Below are positions 4,123 through 33,414 of a stretch of 43,722 bases of DNA, in pieces. The notes beneath the pieces are model-generated. The model had not been told where the DNA came from and searched no databases. It saw nothing but the letters and a program-made list of their open reading frames with translations. The number at the start of each line of letters is the position of its first letter. The first letter of the stretch is position 1. The position numbers and the translations under genes are program-made. This DNA comes from a virus. The stretch lies in IMG/VR virus record IMGVR_UViG_3300030450_000167, positions 1-43,722 of that record. One strand, written 5' to 3'.

Positions 4123-5738
4123 TGGCAGCATCTCAACCCTTTTCTATTGCACTTCAAGGTGGTTTAGATAAAGCTAGTAATGCAATAGATCTTACTCAAA
4201 AGCCGGGAGTAGCCACAAGGCTTAGTAATTTTGAAGTCTCTACCAGAGGAGGCTATAGACGTATTAATGGCTATACTCAGTTTGGAGATGGGACAAGACC
4301 AAATAGTTCTAATGCTGTATTAGGAATGCACGTTTACGGAGATGGAGTTATAGTTGCATCAGGTACAAACTTATACTTTAGTCAAGACGGAGATAGTTGG
4401 CTTCAAATTAATAGAGATAGTGTAGCTGGTGGTGGAGATAATTATAGTACCTTTACAGGGCGTAGTGCACTTGCTAGAACAAGTCAAAGTAAAGCACACT
4501 TTGCTACTTATGAAGGAAATACTGCTTATGGAGAAGTTATTGTAACTGACGAAGGTTCTGGAGCAAAACCCTTTTATTTTAAAATGACAGGGACTGATTC
4601 AGCTTTAAGTAGTAGAACTTATTTTGCTAAAGAAATAACAGTTAGTGGCACACATTATCCTAAATACTGTGTAATACATGATAAGCATTTAGTAGTTGCT
4701 GGAGCAGCTACAGCTTTAAATACTATATTTTATAGTGGAACAAGTGATATAGATGATTTTACATCTTCAGGTTCTGGTAGTATTGTATTAGATGATCAAG
4801 TAGTAGGTTTGAAATCCTTCCGTAATGAGCTATTTATATTTTGTAAAAACTCAATTTATAAATTACAAAATATAAATGATTCAAGTAATATAGCGGTAAC
4901 GCCAGTTACGAAAAACGTAGGCTGTGTAGATGGTAAAACTATTCAAGAGTTTGCAGGAGATCTTATTTTCTTAGCACCTGATGGATTTAGAACTATTGCA
5001 GGTACAGCTAGAATTGGTGATATAGAATTAGGAACTGTAAGTAAAGCTATTCAACCTCTTATAAATGATATTATAGGAAACACAGCTACTTTTGAATATA
5101 GTAGTGTTGTTCTTAGAGATAAGTCACAGTATAGATTATACTATAGTACATCTTCAGCTTCTACAGCTAACTCAAAAGGTATTATAGGTACTTTAACGTC
5201 CAGAGGATTTGAATGGTCTGAAACACAAGGAATACAAGCTTGTGCTATTGCTTCAGGATTTAACTACTCAGGGAAAGAAAAAAGATACCACGGAGATAGA
5301 ACAGGTTATATTTATAATCACGATACAGGAAATGATTTTAATCCTGCTGGAACTTCTACAAATATATTAGCAGAATATCAGTCACCTGATTTTGATTATG
5401 GAGACTTCGGAACTTTAAAAACTTTAGACCATGTTAAAGTTTCTTTATTTCCAGAGGGAGCAGTTGAGCCTACACTTAGAGTTCGCTTTGATTACGACAG
5501 TACAGACAGATTACAACCTACTGATGTAGGAATTATATCTGCGACACCTTCAGTTTTTGGAGATGCTTCAGCCCTTTTTGGAACAAGTACTTTTGGCGCA
5601 CCGGAGCAACCTTTAGTTAGGTCTTCGTTACAAGGAAGTGGACACAGTAACTTCTTTAAAATATTTAGCGAAGATACAAAAGCTCCTTATACCATCAATG
5701 GATTATACATTAATTATAGACCTTCAGGAAGATTATAA
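4122..5738 (+). CDS. Tail tubular protein B-like / tail nozzle protein
   Basis: The product is 538 residues, nearly all beta-sheet type sequence. It opens with a Gln/Gly segment (ALQGGLDKASNAIDLTQKPG) and RLSNFEVSTRGGYRRINGY, a signature I associate with nozzle or tail-hub proteins of marine podoviruses. Repeated aromatic-Gly strands suggest a beta-propeller body. It follows the adaptor gene and precedes the fiber gene, consistent with the distal part of a short tail. It has 1-base overlaps with both neighbours. Confidence is moderate because gp12-like proteins diverge widely. Confidence 0.7.
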   Translation: MAASQPFSIALQGGLDKASNAIDLTQKPGVATRLSNFEVSTRGGYRRINGYTQFGDGTRPNSSNAVLGMHVYGDGVIVASGTNLYFSQDGDSWLQINRDSVAGGGDNYSTFTGRSALARTSQSKAHFATYEGNTAYGEVIVTDEGSGAKPFYFKMTGTDSALSSRTYFAKEITVSGTHYPKYCVIHDKHLVVAGAATALNTIFYSGTSDIDDFTSSGSGSIVLDDQVVGLKSFRNELFIFCKNSIYKLQNINDSSNIAVTPVTKNVGCVDGKTIQEFAGDLIFLAPDGFRTIAGTARIGDIELGTVSKAIQPLINDIIGNTATFEYSSVVLRDKSQYRLYYSTSSASTANSKGIIGTLTSRGFEWSETQGIQACAIASGFNYSGKEKRYHGDRTGYIYNHDTGNDFNPAGTSTNILAEYQSPDFDYGDFGTLKTLDHVKVSLFPEGAVEPTLRVRFDYDSTDRLQPTDVGIISATPSVFGDASALFGTSTFGAPEQPLVRSSLQGSGHSNFFKIFSEDTKAPYTINGLYINYRPSGRL

Positions 5739-8700
5739 TGGGAACAACTTATACACGACAGAGTTCGATAGCTGATGGTGATACAATCACGGCTGCGCTT
5801 TTCAATAACGAATATAACCAAATACTAAACGCCTTTGTTTACGCATCTAGCGGAACAACCGGACACCAACATGACGGTACTGCTGCTGAAGGTGGTAATA
5901 TTCATACGATAGGCGATCAGGATTTTCTTAATAAAATTGTAGCAGATAGCTCTAATAATCGTTGGGGCTTCTTTGTAGAGGTTTCTTCTGCTGCTGTCGA
6001 ACAAGTACGAATACAAGATGGAGCTATTGTACCAGTTACAGATAACGATATAGATCTAGGTACAAGCTCACTAGAATTTAAAGATGGTTACTTTGATGGA
6101 ACTGTCTATGCAGATGCTATAAACTTTAATGGTACTGCAATTTCAGCCACGGCTGCTGAATTGAATATTATGGATGGTGTAACAGCCACTACAGCCGAAT
6201 TAAATATTATGGACGGTGTGACTGCAACAGCTACTGAACTTAATATAATGGATGGAGATACAAGTGCTACGTCTACAACACTAGCAGATGCTGATAGGGT
6301 TGTCGTTAATGATGGTGGCACGATGAAGCAAGTTGCTTTGACAGACTTTGAAACTTATTTTGAAAGCTCTATAGACACTATAGCAAACTTTGAAGTCACC
6401 ACAGAATTACAAACTCCGCTTATTGCATTTACAGATGGCGATGATGCTATTCAGATTGCAGATGGTGGTGGAGTTACAATGGCTGCTGGCCTTACTTCTA
6501 CGGCAGCAGCAAACTCATTAGGAGCTACAAGCTTTAATGATGCAGATATTACTAATGTAGGAGACATACAACTAGATTCTATTACAGGTGATGGAGACAC
6601 TAATACAAGTGTAACCTTCTCAGGCTCTGATGTTATTACAGTAACAACAGGCGGTGAGACACAGATCACTTTTAATAATGGAACTATCCTTCCAACAACT
6701 GATAATGACATTGATCTAGGTTCTAGCTCTTACGAGTTTAAAGACCTTTATATAGACGGTACAGCTAATATAGATTCTTTAGTAGCTGATACGGCTGACA
6801 TTAACGGAGGTAGTGTAGACGGAGCTACTTTAGGCACTAACAGTGCAATTACACAAGCTGTTATTGACAATGTTAATATCAACGGAGCTACGATAGGTCA
6901 TACAGACGATACAGATCTTATTACTCTTGCAGACGGTGTAGTTACAGTCGCAGGAGAATTGGATGCTACTACATTAGATATATCAGGTAATGCTGATATT
7001 GATGGTACTCTTGAAGCCGATGCTTATACAGTCGATGGAACTACATTGGCTGAATATATTGCAGACACAGCAGGAGCAATGGTATCAAGTAATACTGAAA
7101 GCGGTATTACAGTTACTTATCAAGATGCTGATAATACTATAGACTTTTCAGTAGATGCAGCACAGACAGGTATTACATCTATCTATGCTACTGATCTAAT
7201 AATGGGTGAGGACTCTCAGACAGCAATAGATTTTGGAACAGCAAATGAAATTGATTTTAAGGTAGATAACGCTGCTAGACTCACACTTACATCAGGAGCT
7301 TTATATCCTGTAACAGATAACCAAATAGATCTTGGAACAAGCTCATTAGAATTTAAAGATGCTTTCTTTGATGGTACTGTAACTTCAGATGCTTTTGCAG
7401 GGCCGTTGACAGGCGATGTAACTGGAACATCTTCTAAAGTTACAGTCACAGATAGTACAGCCAATACAAATTTCCCTGTAGTTTTCCATGACGAGTCTGA
7501 CGGACTTTTAGACGACACAGGAGCTTTACGATACAATCCAAGCACGGGAGAACTACTAGTACCTAAACTGACTGTAGCAGGTACAACGACTACAGCAGAT
7601 ACAGTTACAATGGAAGCTTCTAATGCTATAATCTTTGAAGGAGCTACAGCAGATGCACACGAAACTACGCTATCTATTGTAGATCCTACAGCAGACCATA
7701 CACAATACTTAATTAATCAAGGTGGGTATATACCTGTTCTAGCAGCAGCAACTACGACTGCTATCACTTCTACTCCTGCTGAACTAAATGTTCTTGATAA
7801 TGTAACGGCAGGGACAGTATCTGCTAGTCTTGGAGTTGTTGTAGATAGTAATAAAGACATAGGCTCATTTAGAAATGTTACTTTAACTGGAGAACTAGAT
7901 GCAGGAAGCCTAGACATATCAGGCGATGCAGATATAGACGGCACGACTAATTTAGATGCTGTAGATATTGATGGTGCTACTCAGATTGATGCTACCGTTA
8001 CTGTTGGTGTAGACGATACTGGATACGATGTGAAATTCTTCGGGGCTACGTCTGGAGCTTATATGCTTTGGGACGAGTCTGCTGATGATTTGAAATTGGT
8101 AGGTGCAGCAGGTCTAACGGTTGCTGGAGATATTGATGTAGACGGCACAGCCAATCTCGATGTAGTAGACATTGATGGTGCTGTGGATATGGCTTCTACG
8201 CTACAGGTTGACGGAGCCATTACTTCTTCTGACGGAATGGTGCTTACCACAGCCGATAACACAGATACTTTACAGTTAATATCTACAGATGCAGATGCAA
8301 ATAGCGGCCCAAATCTTAATTTCTACAGAAACTCCTCTAGTCCAGCAGATGATGATCTTACAGGAGGTATCACTTTTAATAGTAGAAATGATAACTCTCA
8401 AGATTTTCAAGCTGTAAGAATAAGGTCATATTCTACAGACGTTTCTGATGGAACTGAGGATAGTGCATTAGATATAGCTACTATGACAGCAGGTGTTTTA
8501 GGTAATAGATTGGACATTTTGCCTACTGAAACTATTATTAACAATGGATCAATAGACGCTGACTTTAGAGTTGAATCAAATGGACAAACCCATGCTTTGG
8601 TTGTCGATGGTGCTTTAGATAATGTTGGTGTTGGTTATTCTGCTGCACACACAGCAACTAACAAAGGAGTAGCGATTTTAAGTGGTGGTGCTGGTGGCGG

Positions 8701-22465: not shown

Positions 22466-23551
22466 ATGGCAAACTTTGTTTTCGACAAATATTTTATTAT
22501 AATTTTTATTTTGATTTTATTTATACTACTTCCAGACGAAGTATTTTCACAACAAACGGGAACGTGTGCAGCGGGTTCACAGTATTGTGAAACTAATACT
22601 CTTGTAACAACTACAACGGGTACTAATACCAATACAAACACCAATACAAACACCAACACTAATACGAATACAAATACGAATAGCAATACGAATGTTAATA
22701 CGTCTACTTCTACTGCAACGAATACTAATACAAATAATAATATAAACAGTACCTCGTATACTGGAGCGTCTACAAATACGAATGTTAATACTAATACATC
22801 GTCAAATACAAACAGTAATACAAACGTAAACACTAACACAAACAACAACAACTCAACAGTTAGTTCGTCTTCTACTGCTAGTAATACTAACGTAAATACT
22901 TCTACAGTTAATCAAGATGTAAGTAGTAACAACGTAAACACATCAACCAGTACTAATAATAGTACAGCTACCAATACAAACAATAACAATTCAGTCTCCG
23001 AAAGCACTTCATCTTCGGATGTCACTACAAACAACACTAACGTCAATACTAATGAGAACATTAACCGTAATGAAACGGTGCAGAGAATTGAACAGGAGAT
23101 TAAAAGTCCTCCTCCAAGTGCAATCGCACCTAGTATAGGTAGTTCTTATTCACAAGACCTCTGTACAACAGGAGTGAGTGGTGCTATGCAGACTCAAATC
23201 TTCGGGTTCTCTGGAGGCAGAAGCATAACAGACGAGAACTGTGAGCGTATCAAGCTTTCAAAAACCTTATATGACATGGGAATGAAAGTCGCTGCGGTTA
23301 GTTTAATGTGTCAGGATGATAGAGTATTTTCAGCTATGGAAATGGCTGGAACACCTTGCCCTTATATGGGAAGTATAGGAGAAGAAGCTCAAGATAGTTG
23401 GGATAGGAATCCACAGGATCAACCAGCCGGAATGGTAGGGGTTTCGCACAACTTTAAAGAAGCCGATAGTAATTCTGATTATGCTTATCGTGTCTGGACA
23501 AAGGAAGAGTTTTGTAATGAAATGCCTGACGAATCTATTTGCCAGTCTTAG
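22466..23551 (+). CDS. Secreted Asn/Thr-repeat protein with conserved C-terminal domain
   Basis: The product is 361 residues. A hydrophobic N-terminus (residues 9-24, with a likely cleavage after VFS at 29) should direct Sec export. Residues 44-205 are almost only Asn, Thr and Ser in alternation, with some Val. The last 150 residues are a separate domain: PPPSAIAPSIGSSYSQDLCT, a Gly/Phe-rich turn, then LSKTLYDMGMKVAAVSLMCQ and AGTPCPYMG, with five Cys that may pair in the periplasm. I recall this C-terminal domain from marine phage genomes, with no function attached. It overlaps the next secreted gene by 35 bases, so the two are probably made together. Confidence 0.65.
   Translation: MANFVFDKYFIIIFILILFILLPDEVFSQQTGTCAAGSQYCETNTLVTTTTGTNTNTNTNTNTNTNTNTNTNSNTNVNTSTSTATNTNTNNNINSTSYTGASTNTNVNTNTSSNTNSNTNVNTNTNNNNSTVSSSSTASNTNVNTSTVNQDVSSNNVNTSTSTNNSTATNTNNNNSVSESTSSSDVTTNNTNVNTNENINRNETVQRIEQEIKSPPPSAIAPSIGSSYSQDLCTTGVSGAMQTQIFGFSGGRSITDENCERIKLSKTLYDMGMKVAAVSLMCQDDRVFSAMEMAGTPCPYMGSIGEEAQDSWDRNPQDQPAGMVGVSHNFKEADSNSDYAYRVWTKEEFCNEMPDESICQS
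22625..23070 (+). repeat. Low-complexity AAY-ACN codon repeat region
   Basis: The stretch begins with nine perfect Asn-Thr codon pairs (22625-22678) built from synonymous hexamers of the form AAYACN. It continues with degenerate Asn/Thr/Ser/Val pairs. The third codon positions vary (AAT, AAC, ACC, ACA, ACG, ACT), so protein sequence rather than DNA repeat identity seems to be maintained. Changes in hexamer number would keep the frame. Confidence 0.85.
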
Positions 23552-25853
23552 CTTACTTCTAACGGGACTTGCTAGTGCAACTGACTTCACTATAGGGTCA
23601 GCGTCTATTCTCGATCTGAGGAACCAGTCAGGCACCTCACAATGGAATATATCAGATGATAGTAGGTCAGGAGCAATTAATTTAGGATTTACGTTTGGAT
23701 TTTATGGTAATGAATACACTCAAGGATATATGTCTACGAATGGTTGTTGGTCATTTACGACAGTCTATTGCAACGATTACACACCTGATCCATTGCCTGA
23801 TACAGTTTATACTATCTACCCGTTTTGGACTGATCTTATCAGGGATAGTGGCTCTCGAATGCTTACCAAGTATTTTGATAATCCTAGCGGTGATGATTAT
23901 TTTATAGCTGGCTGGTATGATCTTCGAGAATATAATAGGTCTTCAGATAACACGTTTGAAATGTGGCTATACGAGAACTCTAATAACATTGAGTTCAGGT
24001 ATGAAGAATTAAATATCAACAGCCACGATGTTTTAATAGGAATACAGGGAAGTTCTACAGAATACGAGCAGTACCTATTTCATGACGAATGCTCTACAGG
24101 ATCTACAAATTCTAGTTCTTGTGTAAGCACCGATTGGAACAATACGGTCCACAATACAGCCTTAGAGAATAAGTCTCTAATGGTAGAGGTAGATATAACA
24201 GCGCAATGTAACGCTAATCCTCTATATTCTGTGAACTGTAATGGTTACGCACTGGCTTATTTTAATCAGCAATGCGGTATAGATGCTTTATACGATACAG
24301 ATTGTACTGGATACAATGAAGCTTATATAGCACAACAATGTATTTTTGATTCGTTATACCACACTTCTTGTTCTGGTTACGAGTCAGCTTTAGCGCAGCA
24401 GCAAGCCATCGAAGACTCTTATACAACAGAAGAAGAGTTTGAGGATGGAGGGTATAGTCAGGAAGAGTACGACATGTATGGCTTTTCTCCTGACGAAATG
24501 TATATGAGTGAAGGTTATGAATCAGAAGAGGAATTTTATGGCTATGAAACAGAAACTTGGGAAGATCCTTACTACGATCAGTACTACTATGAAGAAGATT
24601 TGGAATCGTTTGAAGCGACTTATGAAGAGGAAATAACGCTAGGAGAGCCTGAATACTTCTACGAACCTGTCTGGATTGACATGCAGTTTGATCCTACTAC
24701 TGATGAATTTGTTATTTATGATATAGATACAGAATACGAAGAGGTCTATACTGCACAGTTAAATGAGGACTATATCTTTGAAGACATGGCAATCACTGAA
24801 AACTGGTTAGCTGTTGAAGATGATTGGCTAGAGGATGAAGCTTTAGAAGAACTAGAGCCTACTCTTTTAGAAGAACAGGCTGAAGAGGTACTTGAAGAAC
24901 TAGCAGAGATAGTAGAAGAAACTGAACTGCTGTTTATTGAAGATGAAGCCTTAGAAGATTTGATAGATGAGGAAGAACTAGAACTTCTTATTAATGAAGA
25001 AGCTTATACAGAGTTAATAGAAGAAGATAATATAGAAGCTATAGAAGAACAAGAAGAAGATTTAATTGTAGAAGAAGAACCCGGAGAGATTCTTGTAGAG
25101 TCTAATTCAAGTTCATCTTCTAGAGTTAATTTTAATAAGGCTGTTGCTGTTGCTTTAAATTCAGTAAGGGACACAGGATCACAAGCTATAGGATCTTCCA
25201 GTATTTCTACAGGCTCATCAGAATCTGAAAATAATGGAGGATTTTTAAGAGATCAAGAAGAACAATCATTAGGTCTTCAAGAGTTTCAAGCAGCCGAGAT
25301 TGGTCCCGAAATATCTGCTTCGCCCTTTGAAGTAGCAGAACAGCAGCAAGAACAGCAAGCTCAGGATGAGTTTATGTTTGAAGATGGAGGAACCTTCACA
25401 CAATCTGACATGCAGTTTGAAGACGACTTCAACGAGGCGATAGCTGTAGGAGGAGACATAGGAACATTCCTAAGTCAGCAAGATCCAGACTTCGGAAGGT
25501 TTGACATAGCTCCACCAACAGTCAGCGAACAAAGGATTGCACAGGCCGTAGAATCTTTAGCAGATCAGATAGGGGCAGAGGCTGCTCAAGAGAACTTACA
25601 AGAACAACTAGATTCTATGATGCAGGATGGTGGATTTGATACTGATCAGACGGCAGCAGTAGCTTTCATGGGCTACAGAGAAGGCTTCTCACAGTACACA
25701 GGAATGATTCAAGTTCCTGATGGAGCTAGTTGGTATCTCAGCACGACTATGTATGCTGAAGAAGATGTACAAGACAATAACTTTAGCTTCTATATGATGG
25801 CTGGAAAGTCTCAGAAGAAGATAAACGAAATGGTAGACGTTGATTATAATTAA
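23517..25853 (+). CDS. Secreted nidogen-like protein with 22-residue Cys repeats and acidic tail
   Basis: I chose ATG 23517 because AAGGAAGAG (23501-23509) lies 7 nt upstream and the resulting N-terminus is a clean signal peptide (about residues 1-21, ending LASA). The 778-residue product has several parts. A nidogen-like beta domain spans about 22-225 (FTFGFYGNEYTQGYMSTNG, then YPFWTDLI). Three 22-residue repeats of the form QCxxxxLYxxxCxGYxxAxxxQ span about 229-298. A very acidic Tyr/Glu-rich region spans about 300-525. A helical Gln-rich C-terminal part ends in FSFYMMAGKSQKKINEM. Nidogen-like domains are usually extracellular adhesion modules. Its role in the phage is unknown: it could be exported to the infected-cell surface or incorporated in virions. 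Confidence 0.65.
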   Translation: MKCLTNLFASLSLLLTGLASATDFTIGSASILDLRNQSGTSQWNISDDSRSGAINLGFTFGFYGNEYTQGYMSTNGCWSFTTVYCNDYTPDPLPDTVYTIYPFWTDLIRDSGSRMLTKYFDNPSGDDYFIAGWYDLREYNRSSDNTFEMWLYENSNNIEFRYEELNINSHDVLIGIQGSSTEYEQYLFHDECSTGSTNSSSCVSTDWNNTVHNTALENKSLMVEVDITAQCNANPLYSVNCNGYALAYFNQQCGIDALYDTDCTGYNEAYIAQQCIFDSLYHTSCSGYESALAQQQAIEDSYTTEEEFEDGGYSQEEYDMYGFSPDEMYMSEGYESEEEFYGYETETWEDPYYDQYYYEEDLESFEATYEEEITLGEPEYFYEPVWIDMQFDPTTDEFVIYDIDTEYEEVYTAQLNEDYIFEDMAITENWLAVEDDWLEDEALEELEPTLLEEQAEEVLEELAEIVEETELLFIEDEALEDLIDEEELELLINEEAYTELIEEDNIEAIEEQEEDLIVEEEPGEILVESNSSSSSRVNFNKAVAVALNSVRDTGSQAIGSSSISTGSSESENNGGFLRDQEEQSLGLQEFQAAEIGPEISASPFEVAEQQQEQQAQDEFMFEDGGTFTQSDMQFEDDFNEAIAVGGDIGTFLSQQDPDFGRFDIAPPTVSEQRIAQAVESLADQIGAEAAQENLQEQLDSMMQDGGFDTDQTAAVAFMGYREGFSQYTGMIQVPDGASWYLSTTMYAEEDVQDNNFSFYMMAGKSQKKINEMVDVDYN

Positions 25854-26449: not shown

Positions 26450-26839
26450 ATGATTGATAAACTAATAGGTCCAGTAACAAGTATTGTAGATAAGTTTGTA
26501 GTCGATAAAGACTTAAAGATGAAGCTACAACATGAACTAGAGACAGCATTACACAGTGCTAACATGGCACAGATAGAAGTCAACAAGGCTGAAGCTGCAC
26601 ATAAGAGTATCTTTGTAGCAGGGTGGAGGCCGTTCGTTGGATGGGTCTGTGGTGTTGCACTTAGTTATCATTTTATTCTAGCGCCTCTGCTACAGTTTGG
26701 ATTTGCTATTGGAGGAATAGATCAAGCACTGCCAGAGTTTGACTTTAGTCAGCTATCCACAGTACTGATGGGTATGCTAGGACTTGGTGGACTTAGGACG
26801 TTTGAGAAGATGAAAGGCGTATCAAGAGAGAGTAAATAA
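26450..26839 (+). CDS. Holin of the 3TM family (gene-transfer-release type)
   Basis: The product is 129 residues. An N-terminal amphipathic helix (about 1-55, with HELETALHSANMAQIEVNKAEAA) is followed by AGWRPFVGWVCGVALSYHF and two further hydrophobic segments, ending with MGMLGLGGLRTFEKMKG. The GWRPFVGW and GLGGLRTFEK motifs are hallmarks of the 3TM holin family (formerly DUF3154), which permeabilises the inner membrane to release endolysin. It lies 11 bases after the coiled-coil membrane gene, in the same late unit as the lysozyme. Confidence 0.85.
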   Translation: MIDKLIGPVTSIVDKFVVDKDLKMKLQHELETALHSANMAQIEVNKAEAAHKSIFVAGWRPFVGWVCGVALSYHFILAPLLQFGFAIGGIDQALPEFDFSQLSTVLMGMLGLGGLRTFEKMKGVSRESK

Positions 26840-27707: not shown

Positions 27708-28154
27708 ATGACTACTGAAAAATGGTTATTGGATACCAAACATCCAATGTTTTCACACTCGTTTATAGGATTTGATAAGCTTTTTAATATGCTTGCTACT
27801 TCACAACTTGATTGTTTAGGTAGGGATCGTAATAAAACTTATCCCCCTTATAATATTCTCAGAGATGAATATACTTATAAAATAGAAATGGCTTTAGCGG
27901 GAATGACAGATAAAGATATTGAAGTCGTTCTAGAAGATAAAGTTCTTACTGTCTCCTATAATAAATCTGATAAAGAAAAAACTAATCAAGAAGTACATCG
28001 TGGAATAGCTCACCGATCCTTCCGAAGAAGCTTTAATTTAGCGGATGATATAGAGGTTAAAGAAGCCAAACTATCTAATGGACTATTAACTATTACTTTA
28101 GAAAGAATAGTACCAGAGGAAAAGAAACCTAAGAAGATAAAGCTAGTAAAATAA
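27708..28154 (+). CDS. Hsp20 / alpha-crystallin family small heat-shock protein
   Basis: This chaperone holds unfolding proteins and prevents aggregation. The product is 148 residues. The N-terminus has SFIGFDKLFNML, as in IbpA-type proteins. The alpha-crystallin domain starts at YPPYNILRDEYTYKIEMALA (about residues 46-65) and contains the RSFRRSF strand and the AKLSNGLLTITL motif (Gly-Leu-Leu signature). A short Lys-rich tail with an I-K-L-type end (PKKIKLVK) completes it. The length is normal for the family. AAGGAG at 27696-27701 is 6 nt from the ATG. Hsp20 genes are also known from cyanophages; here it may help fold virion proteins or protect the host during infection. Confidence 0.93.
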   Translation: MTTEKWLLDTKHPMFSHSFIGFDKLFNMLATSQLDCLGRDRNKTYPPYNILRDEYTYKIEMALAGMTDKDIEVVLEDKVLTVSYNKSDKEKTNQEVHRGIAHRSFRRSFNLADDIEVKEAKLSNGLLTITLERIVPEEKKPKKIKLVK

Positions 28155-28155
28155 A

Positions 28156-28229
28156 ATGATGATAAGCGGCTGCTGAAGTCTACTCATCATTCTAAGGAGA
28201 TAATATGATAACTAGAATTGCAGCAGCCG
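28156..28229 (+). promoter_or_regulatory. Candidate RNA pseudoknot spanning the tonB ribosome binding site
   Basis: A perfect 7-bp stem ATGATGA/TCATCAT joins 28156-28162 with 28184-28190. Its loop holds CGGCTGCTG (28167-28175), which is fully complementary to CAGCAGCCG at 28221-28229 inside the tonB coding start. If both helices form, the result is an H-type pseudoknot whose 30-nt third loop holds the AAGGAG (28194-28199) and the ATG (28205). It could lower or regulate translation. Formation is predicted from complementarity alone. Confidence 0.4.
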
Positions 28230-28804
28230 TTTCATTTGGAACAGGAATTACGTTTGGTTTATTATTTATAATGCAGCTTCTTATATCTACAGGACAAGAA
28301 GCCATAACTGATACTGAAAAGTTTAGGTTAGGAGATTTTGTGCGTGTTGAACGTAATGAAGTTGTAGAAGTAAAGAAAGAAAAGCCTGAAAAGCCACCAG
28401 AGCCAGAAGAAATGCCTGAGATGCCAGCCCCTGATATGATGAATAACTTTGATAACTCTATGGCTGTCTCTGTATCTGCTCCTCAAATCACTACAAGTAT
28501 GCGAGTAGGTGGAGTAGGCTTTGGTATAAGTGATGGAGAATATCTACCTATTGTAAAGGTAGCTCCTGTGTATCCTGCAAGAGCTTTGCAAAGAGGATTG
28601 GAAGGCTATGTTATTGTAGAGTTCACAGTAACTAGACAGGGAACAGTAAGAGATGTAGGTGTTGTAGAATCTACAAGTACTTTGTTTGAACGTGCAGCTA
28701 TGGAAGCTGCTTCAAAGTTTAAGTATAAGCCAAGAGTAATTGATGGTGAAGCTGTTGAAGTTCCGGGTGTAAGAAATAAAATAAGCTTTGCAATAACGGC
28801 TTAG
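28205..28804 (+). CDS. tonB: TonB-like energy transducer protein
   Basis: TonB carries proton-motive energy from the ExbB-ExbD complex in the inner membrane to outer-membrane receptors. The 199-residue product has an N-terminal anchor (about 5-28), a short Lys/Glu/Pro-rich periplasmic linker (about 56-76, EKPEKPPEPEEMPEMPAP) and a C-terminal TonB domain (about 112-199). That domain includes APVYPARALQRGLEGYVIVE (Tyr123-Pro124) and FKYKPRVIDG. The anchor and the LGDFVRVER segment after it resemble TonB2-type proteins of gammaproteobacteria. The linker is short, so reach across the periplasm may be limited or need a partner. No exbB or exbD lies in the window, so it would use host complexes. 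It is a rare phage cargo gene, probably host-derived. Confidence 0.85.
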   Translation: MITRIAAAVSFGTGITFGLLFIMQLLISTGQEAITDTEKFRLGDFVRVERNEVVEVKKEKPEKPPEPEEMPEMPAPDMMNNFDNSMAVSVSAPQITTSMRVGGVGFGISDGEYLPIVKVAPVYPARALQRGLEGYVIVEFTVTRQGTVRDVGVVESTSTLFERAAMEAASKFKYKPRVIDGEAVEVPGVRNKISFAITA

Positions 28805-29302
28805 TTATAAACTATATTCAAAATTCTGTGTCTCGGCATTAAGACCTACAAGTCTTGCTCCGTTCCTAATATGGTAATGCGTTGCCATTGGAGTAAGAGG
28901 AGATAGAGTCACAACCTTTTTAAACTTTTTCTTACTTGCATATTGTAAAACTTCCTCCATTATTTTCTTACCTGCTCCTTTCTTCCTAGACCATACGGTG
29001 TAAGCAATAGCTATGCTTGCATTTTTCTCATACTTACTAACCTTACTCATGAGATCTAACTCACGAATCGTGTGAGGTATATCATTTGTGAACGCTAAAC
29101 AGATAATGGCTAGGATTTCATCACCATGCTCAAGTCCAAATATTTTTCTATCACAGGACTTTCTCCATTCTAAATCTAGTTCGGGCCTGACTGGATCTTC
29201 AGAAACATCTATAGTATGTAGTTCAATAAGTCGTGTCTTATTTATCCAGCTAGAATCTATGTAGCTTTTTCTCTTAAACCAGTTGAGTGTTTCTTTAAAC
29301 AC
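28805..29302 (-). CDS. GNAT-like acetyltransferase (putative)
   Basis: The product is 165 residues from a GTG start, with GGGG 7 nt upstream. The middle has beta-strand sequence (ILAIICLAF). The second half has AIAYTVWSRKKGAGKKIMEE, a plausible acetyl-CoA loop (R-x-x-G-x-G/A pattern), a following helix, and PMATHYHIRNGARLVGLN, which matches the N-x-x-x-x-Y-x-x-x-G-F-type end of GNAT folds. The substrate is unknown. It is the last gene of the leftward arm, and its stop codon abuts the stop codon of tonB on the other strand. I recall similar proteins from marine phages. Confidence 0.6.
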   Translation of the reverse strand: MFKETLNWFKRKSYIDSSWINKTRLIELHTIDVSEDPVRPELDLEWRKSCDRKIFGLEHGDEILAIICLAFTNDIPHTIRELDLMSKVSKYEKNASIAIAYTVWSRKKGAGKKIMEEVLQYASKKKFKKVVTLSPLTPMATHYHIRNGARLVGLNAETQNFEYSL

Positions 29303-29312
29303 AGTATTTCCC

Positions 29313-29837
29313 CTATTTATAAAATATATGATTCTCTATGGTAACTATTTCTTGTAAATAATTAGACCATTCAGGTTTCACATAATCTGCATGATACCAT
29401 AAAGCTCCTTCTGTAATATCAATTAATATCATATTAATCTGAAAATTATTAACTTCTAATATTTCTCTTGCAACTCCCATAGATTGTATCCAAGTATAAG
29501 AATCTGTAGGAGTATCAGATTTACCATCACAGAACCAACTAAATTGACATTTACCTATAATTGGAACTTCGTTTCCCATATAATTTGTACGGTATTCGGC
29601 TTGATAAATAACATCACATACAGAATCTGGAAATTGAGAACTAACAACTCTATTAATAGTTACAAACGAAACGGCTAATTTACCTGCTAACGGTTGATTA
29701 CCCGCTTCAAAATAAATATTTTTAGCCATGCATATTAATTCTTCATCAATGTCTTCCGCAACGATTGACCATTGACCAAAAGAATTAGAAGAAAATAAAA
29801 TTAATATTAAAATAAATAATACTTTTAGTTTATACAT
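29313..29837 (-). CDS. Secreted cell-wall hydrolase, SleB / Hydrolase_2 type
   Basis: This is a peptidoglycan hydrolase with an N-terminal signal peptide (residues 1-21, MYKLKVLFILILILFSSNSF). The catalytic core carries CMAKNIYFEAGNQPLAGKLA, with the probable catalytic Glu44, then VTINRV, a KCQFSWFCDGKSD segment and ALWYHADYVKPEW near the end. The order matches the SleB family (germination-specific and related hydrolases). It has five Cys, which suits a periplasmic enzyme. The start follows GAGGAAAG and overlaps the previous gene by 8 bases. It could act in the periplasm without a holin, unlike the lysozyme at 21781. It lies in the replication arm, an unusual place for a lysis enzyme. Confidence 0.87.
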   Translation of the reverse strand: MYKLKVLFILILILFSSNSFGQWSIVAEDIDEELICMAKNIYFEAGNQPLAGKLAVSFVTINRVVSSQFPDSVCDVIYQAEYRTNYMGNEVPIIGKCQFSWFCDGKSDTPTDSYTWIQSMGVAREILEVNNFQINMILIDITEGALWYHADYVKPEWSNYLQEIVTIENHIFYK

Positions 29838-30060
29838 ATTCTTTCCTCGCGTTTAAAGCTATCTCAATATTTTTATGAACATCATCAAGATTAGCTTTAG
29901 CTTCTCTTATAATACTTTTTAATAAATGATAATCTCTCTTTGTAAAAAGATGTTTAATACTTTCTATATCTGAAGAAGTTCTTTCGGTAACTAAATTACC
30001 TTTACTATCAAATATAACTTTATAGCTTACTAAAGTAGCTTCCCTTTTTTCTGTACTCAT
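29830..30060 (-). CDS. Small protein of unknown function after nrdB (76 aa)
   Basis: The product is 76 residues with an N-terminal beta segment (ATLVSYKVIFDSKGNLV). A helical C-terminal half follows (LLKSIIREAKANLDDVHKNI). Its ATG overlaps the nrdB stop codon (ATGA), so it is translationally coupled to nrdB. I do not recognise a family. Its position among nucleotide-metabolism genes is the only hint. Confidence 0.6.
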   Translation of the reverse strand: MSTEKREATLVSYKVIFDSKGNLVTERTSSDIESIKHLFTKRDYHLLKSIIREAKANLDDVHKNIEIALNARKEYV

Positions 30061-31031
30061 GATTCTATATCTCTGAATTTAAGTTTTCCAGAGTCTCCTC
30101 TTAATCCTGCCTTCATATAAGATGTAGCTCTCCCTTCAAAGAAGTTCTGATGCTCTATGCCCATGACTTCATCTAACCAGCCTAGCGGATTTTCCCGCTG
30201 ATCAAAGTTTGTTTTTAATCCTAGCTGTAACAACCTTCTATCTGCAATGTATCTATTATAAGCATACATATCTTTCTTAGTTAATCCTTGTATGTCTCCC
30301 ATGTCAAACACTAAGTCTAAGAACTTATCCTCTAGTTTAACCATCTCTCTACATATCTGATACAGTTCTTTCTTAAAGTCGTCTGTCCAGATTTCAATGT
30401 TCTCTTGTATAAATTCTCTAAACAACTTAGTCATTGCTTCAACGTGCATAGACTCATCTCGTATAGAGTAAGTAACTATCTGTCCCATACCTTTCATCTT
30501 ACCGAATCTTGGAAAGTTTAAAAGGATAGCAAAGCTACTGAATAACTGTAGTCCCTCTGTAAAGGCCGAGTAGACTGCTAAAGTTTTAGCAATACTTTCC
30601 TTGTTCTTTAGCGTAGGTTTAAAGTCTTTTACATAGTCATGCTTATCAGACATCTCCTCGTATTCAGAAAAGGCTTTATACTCAATCTCAGGCAGTCCTA
30701 CGGTATCTAGGAGAAGACTGTAAGCATGTTGATGAATAGATTCCATATTTGCAAACGATCCCATCATCATTCTAGCTTCGGGCTTCTTAAAGACCCGCAT
30801 ATATTTATCTATATAACCAGCCCCTACATCTACATCCGACTGTGTAAATAGTCTAAAGATCTGAACTAATAAGTTACGTTCAGTAGGAGATAGATCCTGC
30901 CAATCTTTAACATCTGTATGCAGAGGTACTGACTCAGGCATCCAATGCATTTGGTTTTGCAATACATAATAGTCAAACATCCACGGATGATCGAAAGGTT
31001 TATAGTAATCTCTTGTTCCTAGTAAGCTCAT
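30057..31031 (-). CDS. nrdB: Ribonucleotide reductase small (beta) subunit, class I
   Basis: The small subunit carries the diiron centre and radical needed by NrdA to make deoxyribonucleotides. The product is 324 residues. All metal ligands match the E. coli pattern and spacing: Asp66, Glu97, His100, Glu159, Glu193 and His196. Tyr104 is in the radical-tyrosine place (Glu97 plus 7), so it should be a tyrosyl-radical type enzyme. Motifs include NMESIHQHAY and RDESMHVEAM. The gene lies 488 bases downstream of nrdA with two small genes between, a phage arrangement that should still be one message. Confidence 0.96.
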   Translation of the reverse strand: MSLLGTRDYYKPFDHPWMFDYYVLQNQMHWMPESVPLHTDVKDWQDLSPTERNLLVQIFRLFTQSDVDVGAGYIDKYMRVFKKPEARMMMGSFANMESIHQHAYSLLLDTVGLPEIEYKAFSEYEEMSDKHDYVKDFKPTLKNKESIAKTLAVYSAFTEGLQLFSSFAILLNFPRFGKMKGMGQIVTYSIRDESMHVEAMTKLFREFIQENIEIWTDDFKKELYQICREMVKLEDKFLDLVFDMGDIQGLTKKDMYAYNRYIADRRLLQLGLKTNFDQRENPLGWLDEVMGIEHQNFFEGRATSYMKAGLRGDSGKLKFRDIES

Positions 31032-31033
31032 TC

Positions 31034-31264
31034 TTATAGATCTCTTTCGTATAAGTTTACAGAGAAATGATTAGTTAAAGAATTTAATTTATCTTCAGCG
31101 TTAGCTAATTTAGAAATAAGTAGATCCAATGATTCTATAATGTGAGGATGTTCAGCCACACCTACACTATGTTTTAAATAATTTTCTACGTCTACTTTGT
31201 ATTCTGCTATTTCTGCCTCGTACTTTAATTTTAAAGCTTGTACCTTTGCTCCTCTATCTGACAT
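31034..31264 (-). CDS. Small coiled-coil-like protein in RNR operon (76 aa)
   Basis: The product is 76 residues, mostly helical: ALKLKYEAEIAEYKVDVENY then HPHIIESLDLLISKLANAED. I recall similar proteins beside ribonucleotide reductase genes in marine phages, with no known function. AAGGAG sits before the ATG, which lies inside the 3' end of the previous gene (11-base overlap). It ends two bases before nrdB. Confidence 0.6.
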   Translation of the reverse strand: MSDRGAKVQALKLKYEAEIAEYKVDVENYLKHSVGVAEHPHIIESLDLLISKLANAEDKLNSLTNHFSVNLYERDL

Positions 31265-31517
31265 CTTGTTCTCCTTGTTCTGTTATATCGTATATCCAAT
31301 AATCTAAAATCATATCTCTAGGTATGACCATTGCGGTGTTTATCGTCTTCTTATCCTTCTCGTAAAAGTCTGTACATAAAACAATAGCATCGGAGTTTTC
31401 TTTTATTAAAAATCCCACAGTAGATCTAACAATAGGTTTTAATTTTCTAGCTTCCTCTAAAGCAAAGTCGTCTGTATCAATCCAAGCATCTCCCCATTTA
31501 ACTTCTACTACTTTCAT
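31254..31517 (-). CDS. Conserved small phage protein in RNR operon (87 aa)
   Basis: The ATG at 31517 is one base after the nrdA stop and is preceded by GAGGGA within the end of nrdA; an upstream GTG at 31529 is a less likely start. The 87-residue product begins MKVVEVKWGDAWIDTDDF and has a strand pair (TVGFLIKENSDAIVLCTDFY) and an IPRDMILDYW segment. I recall this protein in many phages near replication or nucleotide genes, uncharacterised. It may modulate nucleotide metabolism, inferred only from its position. Confidence 0.65.
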   Translation of the reverse strand: MKVVEVKWGDAWIDTDDFALEEARKLKPIVRSTVGFLIKENSDAIVLCTDFYEKDKKTINTAMVIPRDMILDYWIYDITEQGEQDVR

Positions 31518-31518
31518 G

Positions 31519-33414
31519 TTATCCCTCACAAGCTAAACATTCTATTTCGTCTAATTTAATTCTTGGTATTTTAACTCCTACATTTTCTGTAGTTCTAGCT
31601 GCTTCTGTTCTAAAGTAGTAAAGTGACTTGAGTTTATTTGCCCCATACCAATGAACATCATTAACATATTGCATATAATCATCATGTATTTCTTGATTCT
31701 CTGTGGCTTTTGGAAGCGTGAAGAATAAGTTTACACTTTGACTTTGACAAATAAACTCCTGTCTCTTTATCGAATGTTCAATAACCCATAGTTGATTTAC
31801 CTCCGTTGCTGTTTTAAATACATTCTTTTCGTGTTCTGAAAGAATATCTAAGTGTTGTACCGACCCATTATGTGCTAGTATATCAGCCCATAAGTCTTTT
31901 ATTTCCTCGTCCAATAATCCTTTTTCTTTAAAAAGATTTTCAAGAAATCTATTTTTAACTTGGTAATTTCCTGTAAGGGTTTTATGCGTAAAAATGTTAG
32001 CACGAAAAGGCTCAATAGAAGGAGAAGTCCCACCACAAATAATACTACTACTAGCATTAGGAGCCACAGCAAGTAAGTGAGCGTTCCTATAACCTGACCC
32101 ATGTACATCAGGAGCTTCACCACGCTCATCAGCCAATCTTTTAGAAACTTTAAGTGCTTCAGCTTTAATATGTTTAAAACATTTATAGTTAAAGCTAGTA
32201 GCATAGATACTTTCAAAGTCAATATTTTTACGCTGGAGATAGGCGTGAAATCCCATTGCTCCCAAACCGATTGACCTTTCTCTATAAGCTGAGTAGGCAG
32301 CTTTAGTAAATCCTTCTTGGCCTTCTTTAATATAGGTTTTAAATCTTTTAAAATTGGCACTATATTCTCCTAACTGTGTAGTGTCTAAAGCATTTTCTAT
32401 AAAATGTTGTAATACATTATCTAGCATTGTAATTAAATCTCTAATAAATAAAGAGTTATTCTTCCACTCATCAAAGTATTCTAAGTTTACACTAGACAAA
32501 CAACACACCGCAGTTCTCTCTTCGTTTGTTGGTAATGTTATTTCAGAACATAGGTTACTTTGTTTGATTTCTAACCCTAGATCTTTCTGTCCTTTAGGTA
32601 GATGCTCATTACAAATATCTAGATTAACTATGTAAGGCTCGCCTGTCTCTGCTCTTGCATAGATAATCTGCCACCATAGATCTCTAGCATTTATAATCTT
32701 AACAGCTTCATTAGTTTTAGGATCTACTAATCTCCAATCTAAATCTTCTTTGACTGCCTTTAAGAATTCGTTATTAAGTGTGATACCGTTGTGAAGATTC
32801 AAACACTTTCTATTAATATCTCCTCCAGATTCTTTTCTAATATTAATAAACTCTTCTATTTCTGGATGGCTAACATCCATATATGCAGCGTAGCTACCTC
32901 GTCTTGTAGTGCCTTGATTAAAGGCGAGCATCTGAGAATCTACGACATGCATGAAAGGGATAGAACCAGTAGAACGACTGCCGTGAGCAGTAGGTATACC
33001 ATTACTCCTAACATCTCCCCAAAATCCACCAATGCCTCCACCTGAGCTTGCCAACCAAATGTTCTCGTCATAATGATCAGACAAACCGCCCCTACTATCA
33101 GGGACATAATTAAGGAAGCAGCTAATAGGTAAGCCACGACTTGTTCCCCCGTTACTAAGAATAGGAGTGCTAAACATGAACCAACAATCGGAACTGTAGT
33201 TATAAAGTCTTTGAGCCAATTCATAGTCTGTTATTCCTTTGTATGTAGCTCCGAATACAGATGCTCTCGCAAATGCTTCTTGAGCGTGAGTTTCTTCTTC
33301 CCAAAAATATCTATCCTTTAAACTATTCAAACTAAAATCATTTAGTTTTTTATCTTTATCATAGTCTATTTTAATTCCTAAATATTCTTTAGGACCAACT
33401 TTATCTTCAATCAT
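31519..33414 (-). CDS. nrdA: Ribonucleotide reductase large (alpha) subunit, class I, without ATP cone
   Basis: This subunit reduces ribonucleotides to deoxyribonucleotides. The product is 631 residues. Active-site residues are visible: Cys99 (GLPISC), Asn287-Cys289-Glu291 (NLCSE), Cys304 (CCLSSVNL) and the Tyr-Tyr radical pair (SLYYFRTEA). A CxxC pair ends the C-terminal tail (CLACEG), which relays reducing power. Cys99 corresponds to E. coli Cys225, so about 125 N-terminal residues including the ATP-cone are missing. The enzyme should then escape dATP feedback inhibition of overall activity, a common feature of phage RNRs. The start overlaps the upstream gene by 8 bases. Confidence 0.96.
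   Translation of the reverse strand: MIEDKVGPKEYLGIKIDYDKDKKLNDFSLNSLKDRYFWEEETHAQEAFARASVFGATYKGITDYELAQRLYNYSSDCWFMFSTPILSNGGTSRGLPISCFLNYVPDSRGGLSDHYDENIWLASSGGGIGGFWGDVRSNGIPTAHGSRSTGSIPFMHVVDSQMLAFNQGTTRRGSYAAYMDVSHPEIEEFINIRKESGGDINRKCLNLHNGITLNNEFLKAVKEDLDWRLVDPKTNEAVKIINARDLWWQIIYARAETGEPYIVNLDICNEHLPKGQKDLGLEIKQSNLCSEITLPTNEERTAVCCLSSVNLEYFDEWKNNSLFIRDLITMLDNVLQHFIENALDTTQLGEYSANFKRFKTYIKEGQEGFTKAAYSAYRERSIGLGAMGFHAYLQRKNIDFESIYATSFNYKCFKHIKAEALKVSKRLADERGEAPDVHGSGYRNAHLLAVAPNASSSIICGGTSPSIEPFRANIFTHKTLTGNYQVKNRFLENLFKEKGLLDEEIKDLWADILAHNGSVQHLDILSEHEKNVFKTATEVNQLWVIEHSIKRQEFICQSQSVNLFFTLPKATENQEIHDDYMQYVNDVHWYGANKLKSLYYFRTEAARTTENVGVKIPRIKLDEIECLACEG

Follow-up and report, generated by a model that had tools for sequence, protein, structure and literature searches.

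TonB-dependent transport is a main route by which scarce nutrients enter marine bacteria, and it also serves phages as an entry door. A 43.7-kb virus record from IMG/VR, analysed here over its whole length (the window), carries on its forward strand an open reading frame (28205–28804) that a preliminary description, made from the letters alone, took for a phage-borne TonB energy transducer. The locus raises three questions: whether the gene encodes a complete TonB, where the phage obtained it, and what a virus would gain by carrying it.

The tonB gene and its place in the phage genome

A TonB_C profile search, the check suggested in that description, was positive: the 199-aa product matches Pfam TonB_C at 69 bits (cut-off 24.6; E = 5e-19; residues 120–196), and it matches TIGR01352 at 57 bits (cut-off 27.1). 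Its best sequence match among solved structures, found with phmmer, is the C-terminal domain (CTD) of V. anguillarum TonB2 (2k9k; E = 9.2e-22). In the AlphaFold model a helix at residues 2–35 is followed by a disordered middle and a C-terminal alpha/beta domain; the hydrophobic N-terminal helix, an anchor conserved in the host copies, is modelled with a mean pLDDT of 81–94 over residues 1–30. A Pro/Glu/Lys-rich periplasmic linker (KEKPEKPPEPEEMPEMPAP, residues ~58–76) lies between this anchor and the TonB_C domain (residues ~109–199). Foldseek aligned the model with TonB CTDs in the PDB at TMt 0.62–0.86 among the best matches, including the BtuB-bound E. coli TonB (2gsk, 0.86) and the FhuA-bound TonB (2grx, 0.83); a Foldseek search against viral structures (BFVD) gave no match at E ≤0.001, a search whose sensitivity may have suffered from the use of the full-length model, disordered linker included.

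Alignment with E. coli K-12 TonB places the phage Tyr-Pro (residues 123–124) on the YPARA motif and shows that YPARA, FER and the Y-x-P near the third strand are all retained. The anchor residue His20 of E. coli TonB is replaced by Gly12 in the phage protein and equally in 9/9 close bacterial copies; its absence is thus a trait of the subgroup, not a peculiarity of the phage copy, and does not define TonB2. The ORF is a complete TonB of the TonB2 type, an observation far beyond chance, and the anchor, Pro-rich linker and Tyr-Pro-bearing CTD proposed in the preliminary description are borne out by Pfam, TIGR01352, AlphaFold and Foldseek together. Its remark that the linker is short holds only against E. 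coli TonB (239 aa), since the host orthologues described below are equally long.

The gene starts with ATG, immediately preceded by a Shine-Dalgarno-like stretch read from the sequence (AAGGAGATAAT, 28194–28204, forward strand) whose AAGGAG lies 5 nt upstream. As originally described, it stands beside hsp20 (27708–28154, forward; Pfam HSP20; phrog_432, E = 2e-39), a phage-type small heat-shock protein gene, and it is the final gene of the rightward late arm, which also includes a lysis gene for a GTA-type holin with three transmembrane segments (26450–26839, forward; PF11351, phrog_3427). Three reverse-strand units converge on it: a GNAT/MCD-like acyltransferase (28805–29302), an endolysin-like Hydrolase_2 cell-wall hydrolase (29313–29837), and class I ribonucleotide reductase (RNR) beta and alpha (30057–33414). 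The beta subunit NrdB (30057–31031), by reading, keeps the metal-ligand motifs MESIHQHAY and RDESMH and is probably an iron-dependent class I enzyme. An inverted repeat with a long loop (AATGATGA...TCATCATT, 28157–28193) separates hsp20 from tonB and is not terminator-like; promoter and terminator scans gave nothing above shuffled sequences, and searches for RNA families and tRNAs found none. Further upstream, a 790-aa late protein (23481–25853) combines a weak nidogen-like (NIDO) match with a very acidic, Glu/Tyr-rich middle, and its homologues in related phages are highly variable (28–49% identity).

The genome itself is that of an HTVC115P-like podovirus. With pelagiphage HTVC115P, which has the same RNR/hsp20 junction without tonB, it shares 61% identity in the capsid protein and 49% in the DNA polymerase, and the window also encodes a primase/helicase, an endonuclease and an SU10-type adaptor protein. 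The scan of window ORFs recognised neither a terminase nor a portal, HTVC115P measures 54.8 kb, and one end gene of the window runs past the record edge, so that the record is probably incomplete. We ruled out a chimeric assembly or host contamination, because the same gene with its phage-side GNAT neighbour occurs in three contigs, and an artefact of a prophage edge was likewise ruled out for the window.

Bacterial origin and repeated acquisition

We sought relatives of the phage TonB in one bacterial genome per species. The best are nine metagenome-assembled genomes (MAGs) at 70–86% identity, followed by matches at ≤57%. All nine belong to one uncultured gammaproteobacterial family, whose chromosomal TonBs include the closest relatives (80–86% identity) and in which 16 of 22 genomes have a long match at 63–86% identity; because the MAG titles conflict on taxonomy (Proteobacteria, Gammaproteobacteria, Rhodospirillaceae), we used the family grouping instead. 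Where flanking sequence allows, the family's tonB lies in an operon ordered DUF3450(ttpB)-ExbB(ttpC)-ExbB-ExbD-ExbD-TonB-TPR(ttpD), in which TtpC is a 461-aa ExbB. The V. vulnificus TonB2 system requires both TtpB2, which belongs to DUF3450, and the TPR protein TtpD2, and its TonB2 is reportedly interchangeable between species (PMC6957404). The UBA6522-type operon is this Vibrio TonB2 system. The phage TonB resembles the chromosomal TonB2 (TtpB-TtpC-ExbB2-ExbD2-TonB2-TtpD) of Vibrio and other marine gammaproteobacteria in length, anchor, linker, CTD and all conserved residues, whereas its gene stands alone in a late arm, without exbB, exbD, ttpB, ttpC or ttpD.

The phage tonB was therefore probably taken from a presumed host within the UBA6522/SP362 group of uncultured gammaproteobacteria. 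This host assignment is drawn solely from the ancestry of the gene, and it gives a pointer to where, beyond SAR11, HTVC115P-like phages may find hosts. An attempt to confirm that host through homologues of neighbouring phage genes yielded no support: the GNAT gene had no match in the family's bacterial genomes, and hsp20 had none in the closest ones. Four of the related bacterial genomes encode 7–15 TonB-dependent transporters. In the incomplete MAGs G001, G003 and G007, the remaining TonB_C-like matches are TPR-rich or other proteins without the anchored TonB layout; the main TonB is thus probably the one that was captured.

Other phages carry the gene as well. Two more IMG/VR contigs of the window's phage type (L002 and L003) encode TonBs 89–90% identical to that of the window, with the reading frame intact in all three, and a second phage type with UvsX and DnaB (L092, L093 and the fragment L096) encodes one that is 59% identical. 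In a maximum-likelihood tree of host and viral TonBs, an analysis also suggested in the preliminary description, both phage groups nest among the copies of one bacterial family: the window group lies beside UBA6522/SP362, its exact sister being less certain, and L092 lies beside TMED78 (97/95). The well-supported branches require at least two changes of phage label, indicating that two unrelated phage types acquired a TonB of the same family independently. Both types also have a homologous Hydrolase_2 lysin (42% identity) and a homologous GNAT gene (41%) within a few kilobases of tonB, neighbours that may reflect a common gene pool rather than a functional cassette. The GNAT/MCD-like protein common to these two unrelated tonB-bearing phages (L092:14270–14680 in the second) is also 57% identical to a protein of pelagiphage Mosig.

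The gene is nevertheless rare. Among 80 loci chosen for a neighbouring RNR small subunit 84–93% identical to that of the window, 55 of which extend at least 1.5 kb beyond RNR and 35 of which show a recognised late gene, a profile search found TonB in none. In L098, the closest locus for comparison, RNR, Hydrolase_2 and hsp20 follow one another as in the window, and the place of tonB and GNAT is taken by two small ORFs that look like lipoprotein genes; tonB is thus optional at this junction. These ORFs of the tonB-free hsp20/Hydrolase_2 junction (L098:5414–5614 and 5611–5823, reverse strand) encode 66–70 aa with LSC/PSC/ISC boxes, and a similar one lies ~10 bp before tonB in L003 (7782–7991, forward). 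They matched no family and could be o-spanins or receptor-blocking lipoproteins.

Selection on the gene and comparison with other phage-associated TonB proteins

So patchy a distribution, with no copy in the 80 related RNR loci, is what one would see if tonB were a recently acquired passenger of no benefit. The divergence of the phage copies tells against this. Between the window and L002 or L003, dS is 0.46–0.52 and dN/dS 0.12–0.13, and between L002 and L003 dN/dS is 0.04; against the host copy L004, dS is near saturation. Over the 30 codons of the anchor, the window and L002 differ by 10 synonymous and 0 amino-acid changes. With copies this far apart still constrained, the frame intact in three contigs and a second, independent acquisition, we reject a neutral passenger on dN/dS and regard a chance acquisition in general as the most improbable of the alternatives considered here.

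The sequence data thus indicate purifying selection along the phage TonB, membrane anchor included. Conservation at the level of residues agrees: at the 59 columns conserved at ≥95% in 23 bacterial TonBs, the window keeps 59/59, L002 and L003 keep 58, and L092 keeps 53. In known systems the TonB anchor contacts ExbB and ExbD, and its preservation here argues for a protein that would work with the host motor. The linker equals those of the host copies in length and, over residues 58–76, matches L004 in sequence too. We therefore rejected a shortened-linker inhibitor, and the preliminary suggestion that a short linker might mark an inhibitor finds no support in a protein whose linker matches the chromosomal TonB2 orthologues and whose anchor is under purifying selection. 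Codons 62–75 of the window gene (nt 186–223) resemble host L004 more than they do phage L002 (permutation p ~0.002–0.003, uncorrected; p 0.07–0.11 with L006 as parent), a weak mosaicism that may have arisen by exchange with the host gene or, the linker being repetitive, by chance. Phage genes on both flanks, occurrence in three contigs, a tree position nested in one bacterial family and a dN/dS of 0.12–0.13 place tonB among the host-derived auxiliary genes.

Precedent for such a gene is partial: lambdoid phages carry a short TonB-CTD lipoprotein, and a complete phage TonB transducer is unreported in the libraries searched. The lambdoid protein (PHROG 1267; phage 21, JLK-2012, ST13-OXA48phi12.4), the type to which the INPHARED phage TonB-domain proteins that we examined belong, resembles that of the window in being phage-encoded, in having a TonB CTD and in lying close after lysis genes. 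It differs in its length of ~108–122 aa, its lipobox signal peptide, the lack of a membrane helix and Pro-rich linker, and its greater nearness to E. coli TonB than to TonB2. The window TonB matches PHROG 1267 at E = 0.017 only and has 199 aa with helix and linker, so its layout is not the lipobox/CTD-only one. PHROG 1267 lipoproteins may be TonB decoys.

A decoy role has to be weighed for the window gene too: an extra TonB might occupy TonB boxes or the host's ExbB/ExbD and so bar TonB-dependent phages and bacteriocins from the infected cell. Phages do block TonB-dependent receptors with small lipoproteins, among them Llp of T5 and Cor of N15 and phi80; beyond this precedent, the lambdoid lipoprotein after its lysis genes looks like a decoy, and small ORFs resembling lipoprotein genes are found at this junction in L098 and just ahead of tonB in L003. 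A decoy, however, needs only the CTD and could shed its anchor, whereas the phage keeps anchor and linker and has lost no conserved residue; a protein nearly identical to the host's own should work rather than poison; and the late arm is a place where exclusion matters less. We consider superinfection exclusion or competition unlikely, though it is the strongest of the rival readings.

The setting of the gene also invites a role in lysis, in which a membrane-anchored, periplasm-spanning late protein would act like a spanin or in the timing of lysis. The gene lies within a few kilobases of the Hydrolase_2 lysin in both phage types and near the holin in the window and L003, and in PHROGs the lambdoid TonB-CTD family bears the label 'Rz-like spanin'. 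That label, which we traced to the lambdoid lipoprotein family, covers lipoproteins with a TonB CTD (L195, L196, L197) that lie next to genuine Rz genes in JLK-2012 and phage 21, and it looks wrong. A spanin function, moreover, gives no reason for the residues that bind TonB boxes to be preserved or for the protein to stay 85% identical to that of the host, and a part in lysis or the envelope therefore seems very unlikely.

Other TonB annotations on viral contigs are of different kinds. Four IMG/VR contigs (L191–L194, phrog_34172) carry, like the window, an annotated TonB; theirs is a host gene at a phi80-type integration site, an E. coli-type bacterial chromosome gene at a prophage edge that adjoins the integrase in the contig examined, and not a phage gene. 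The Acinetobacter 'phage' records are bacterial-looking contigs. The lambda-like gut viral contigs for which VIBRANT lists a tonB are probably of the prophage-edge or lambdoid types. The 'TonB-dependent receptor' protein of pelagiphage Skadi is likewise a marine phage gene tied to the TonB system, but it is receptor-type, unlike the energy transducer of the window (PMC10504331). In the open-licence literature searched, no lytic marine phage was described with a full-length tonB, and a survey of HMO-2011-type phages did not mention TonB.

A proposed role during infection

A TonB acts with partners, and the phage appears to bring none: searches found no ExbB or ExbD in the window or in three other phage records, while bacterial genomes used as positive controls gave three to five of each. 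This supports the earlier view that the protein would have to use host complexes, its partners being absent from the phage and present around the bacterial copies. Of the roles that the preliminary description had offered, boosting or sustaining uptake appears the best supported. We think it somewhat more likely than not that the protein is a working TonB2 transducer that would join the host's TtpC/ExbB/ExbD and sustain TonB-dependent uptake during infection. The proposal builds on the computed identity, architecture, host origin and conservation of the protein; its assembly with host partners, its timing and its benefit we infer.

The phage TonB would insert in the inner membrane through its N-terminal helix and join the host's own TtpC/ExbB/ExbD motor; its linker would span the periplasm, and its CTD would bind the TonB boxes of host TonB-dependent transporters. 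With host gene expression shut off, a TonB made from the late arm would supplement the host's own or take its place, so that iron, B12 or other nutrients in short supply could still be imported until lysis. Kadner and McElhaney reportedly observed in 1978 that TonB function decays once protein synthesis stops; once a phage halts expression in its host, the TonB link could fail early, and a phage-borne tonB would restore it. TonB is also scarce in E. coli, at 300–1000 per cell against up to 14,000 for FepA (PMC11658791).

A comparable logic is seen in cyanophages, whose psbA and psbD are host-derived auxiliary metabolic genes. Like the phage tonB, they encode one subunit of a host membrane machine, are intact and under purifying selection, and were acquired more than once. 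By analogy, the rationale for psbA, supplying one scarce subunit of a host machine that turns over, may apply to tonB, which differs in acting on outer-membrane nutrient uptake rather than photosynthesis and whose turnover has been documented in E. coli alone.

The benefit could be narrower than general maintenance, for instance uptake of a specific nutrient such as iron for the phage's own class I RNR. The window encodes RNR alpha and beta, and beta, by reading, keeps the E-x-x-H and D-E-x-x-H metal-ligand motifs and the radical tyrosine position; the Vibrio TonB2 operon is iron-regulated and serves siderophore uptake (PMC6957404). Nearly all related phages, however, have this RNR without tonB, and we hold a supply dedicated to phage enzymes to be improbable. 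The same distribution implies that any benefit of sustained uptake must be conditional, and surplus TonB may even lower uptake.

More broadly, and as a tentative proposal to which we give a little less than an even chance, at least two unrelated marine phage lineages that infect one and the same uncultured family of gammaproteobacteria would each, independently, have captured its apparently main TonB and use it as a replacement part: the phage would supply the scarce subunit linking proton-motive force to the outer membrane, and the infected cell would keep importing nutrients. If this is true, the mosaicism at codons 62–75 would mean that exchange of tonB between phage and host continues.

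A full-length TonB as a recurrent, independently captured and selected phage gene extends the known class of host-derived auxiliary genes. Two independent captures of one TonB type, with purifying selection that includes the anchor, argue that energisation of the outer membrane can limit phage production. The finding suggests that some viruses keep a nutrient-uptake pump running while they replicate; if so, outer-membrane nutrient import would join the functions that phages take over.
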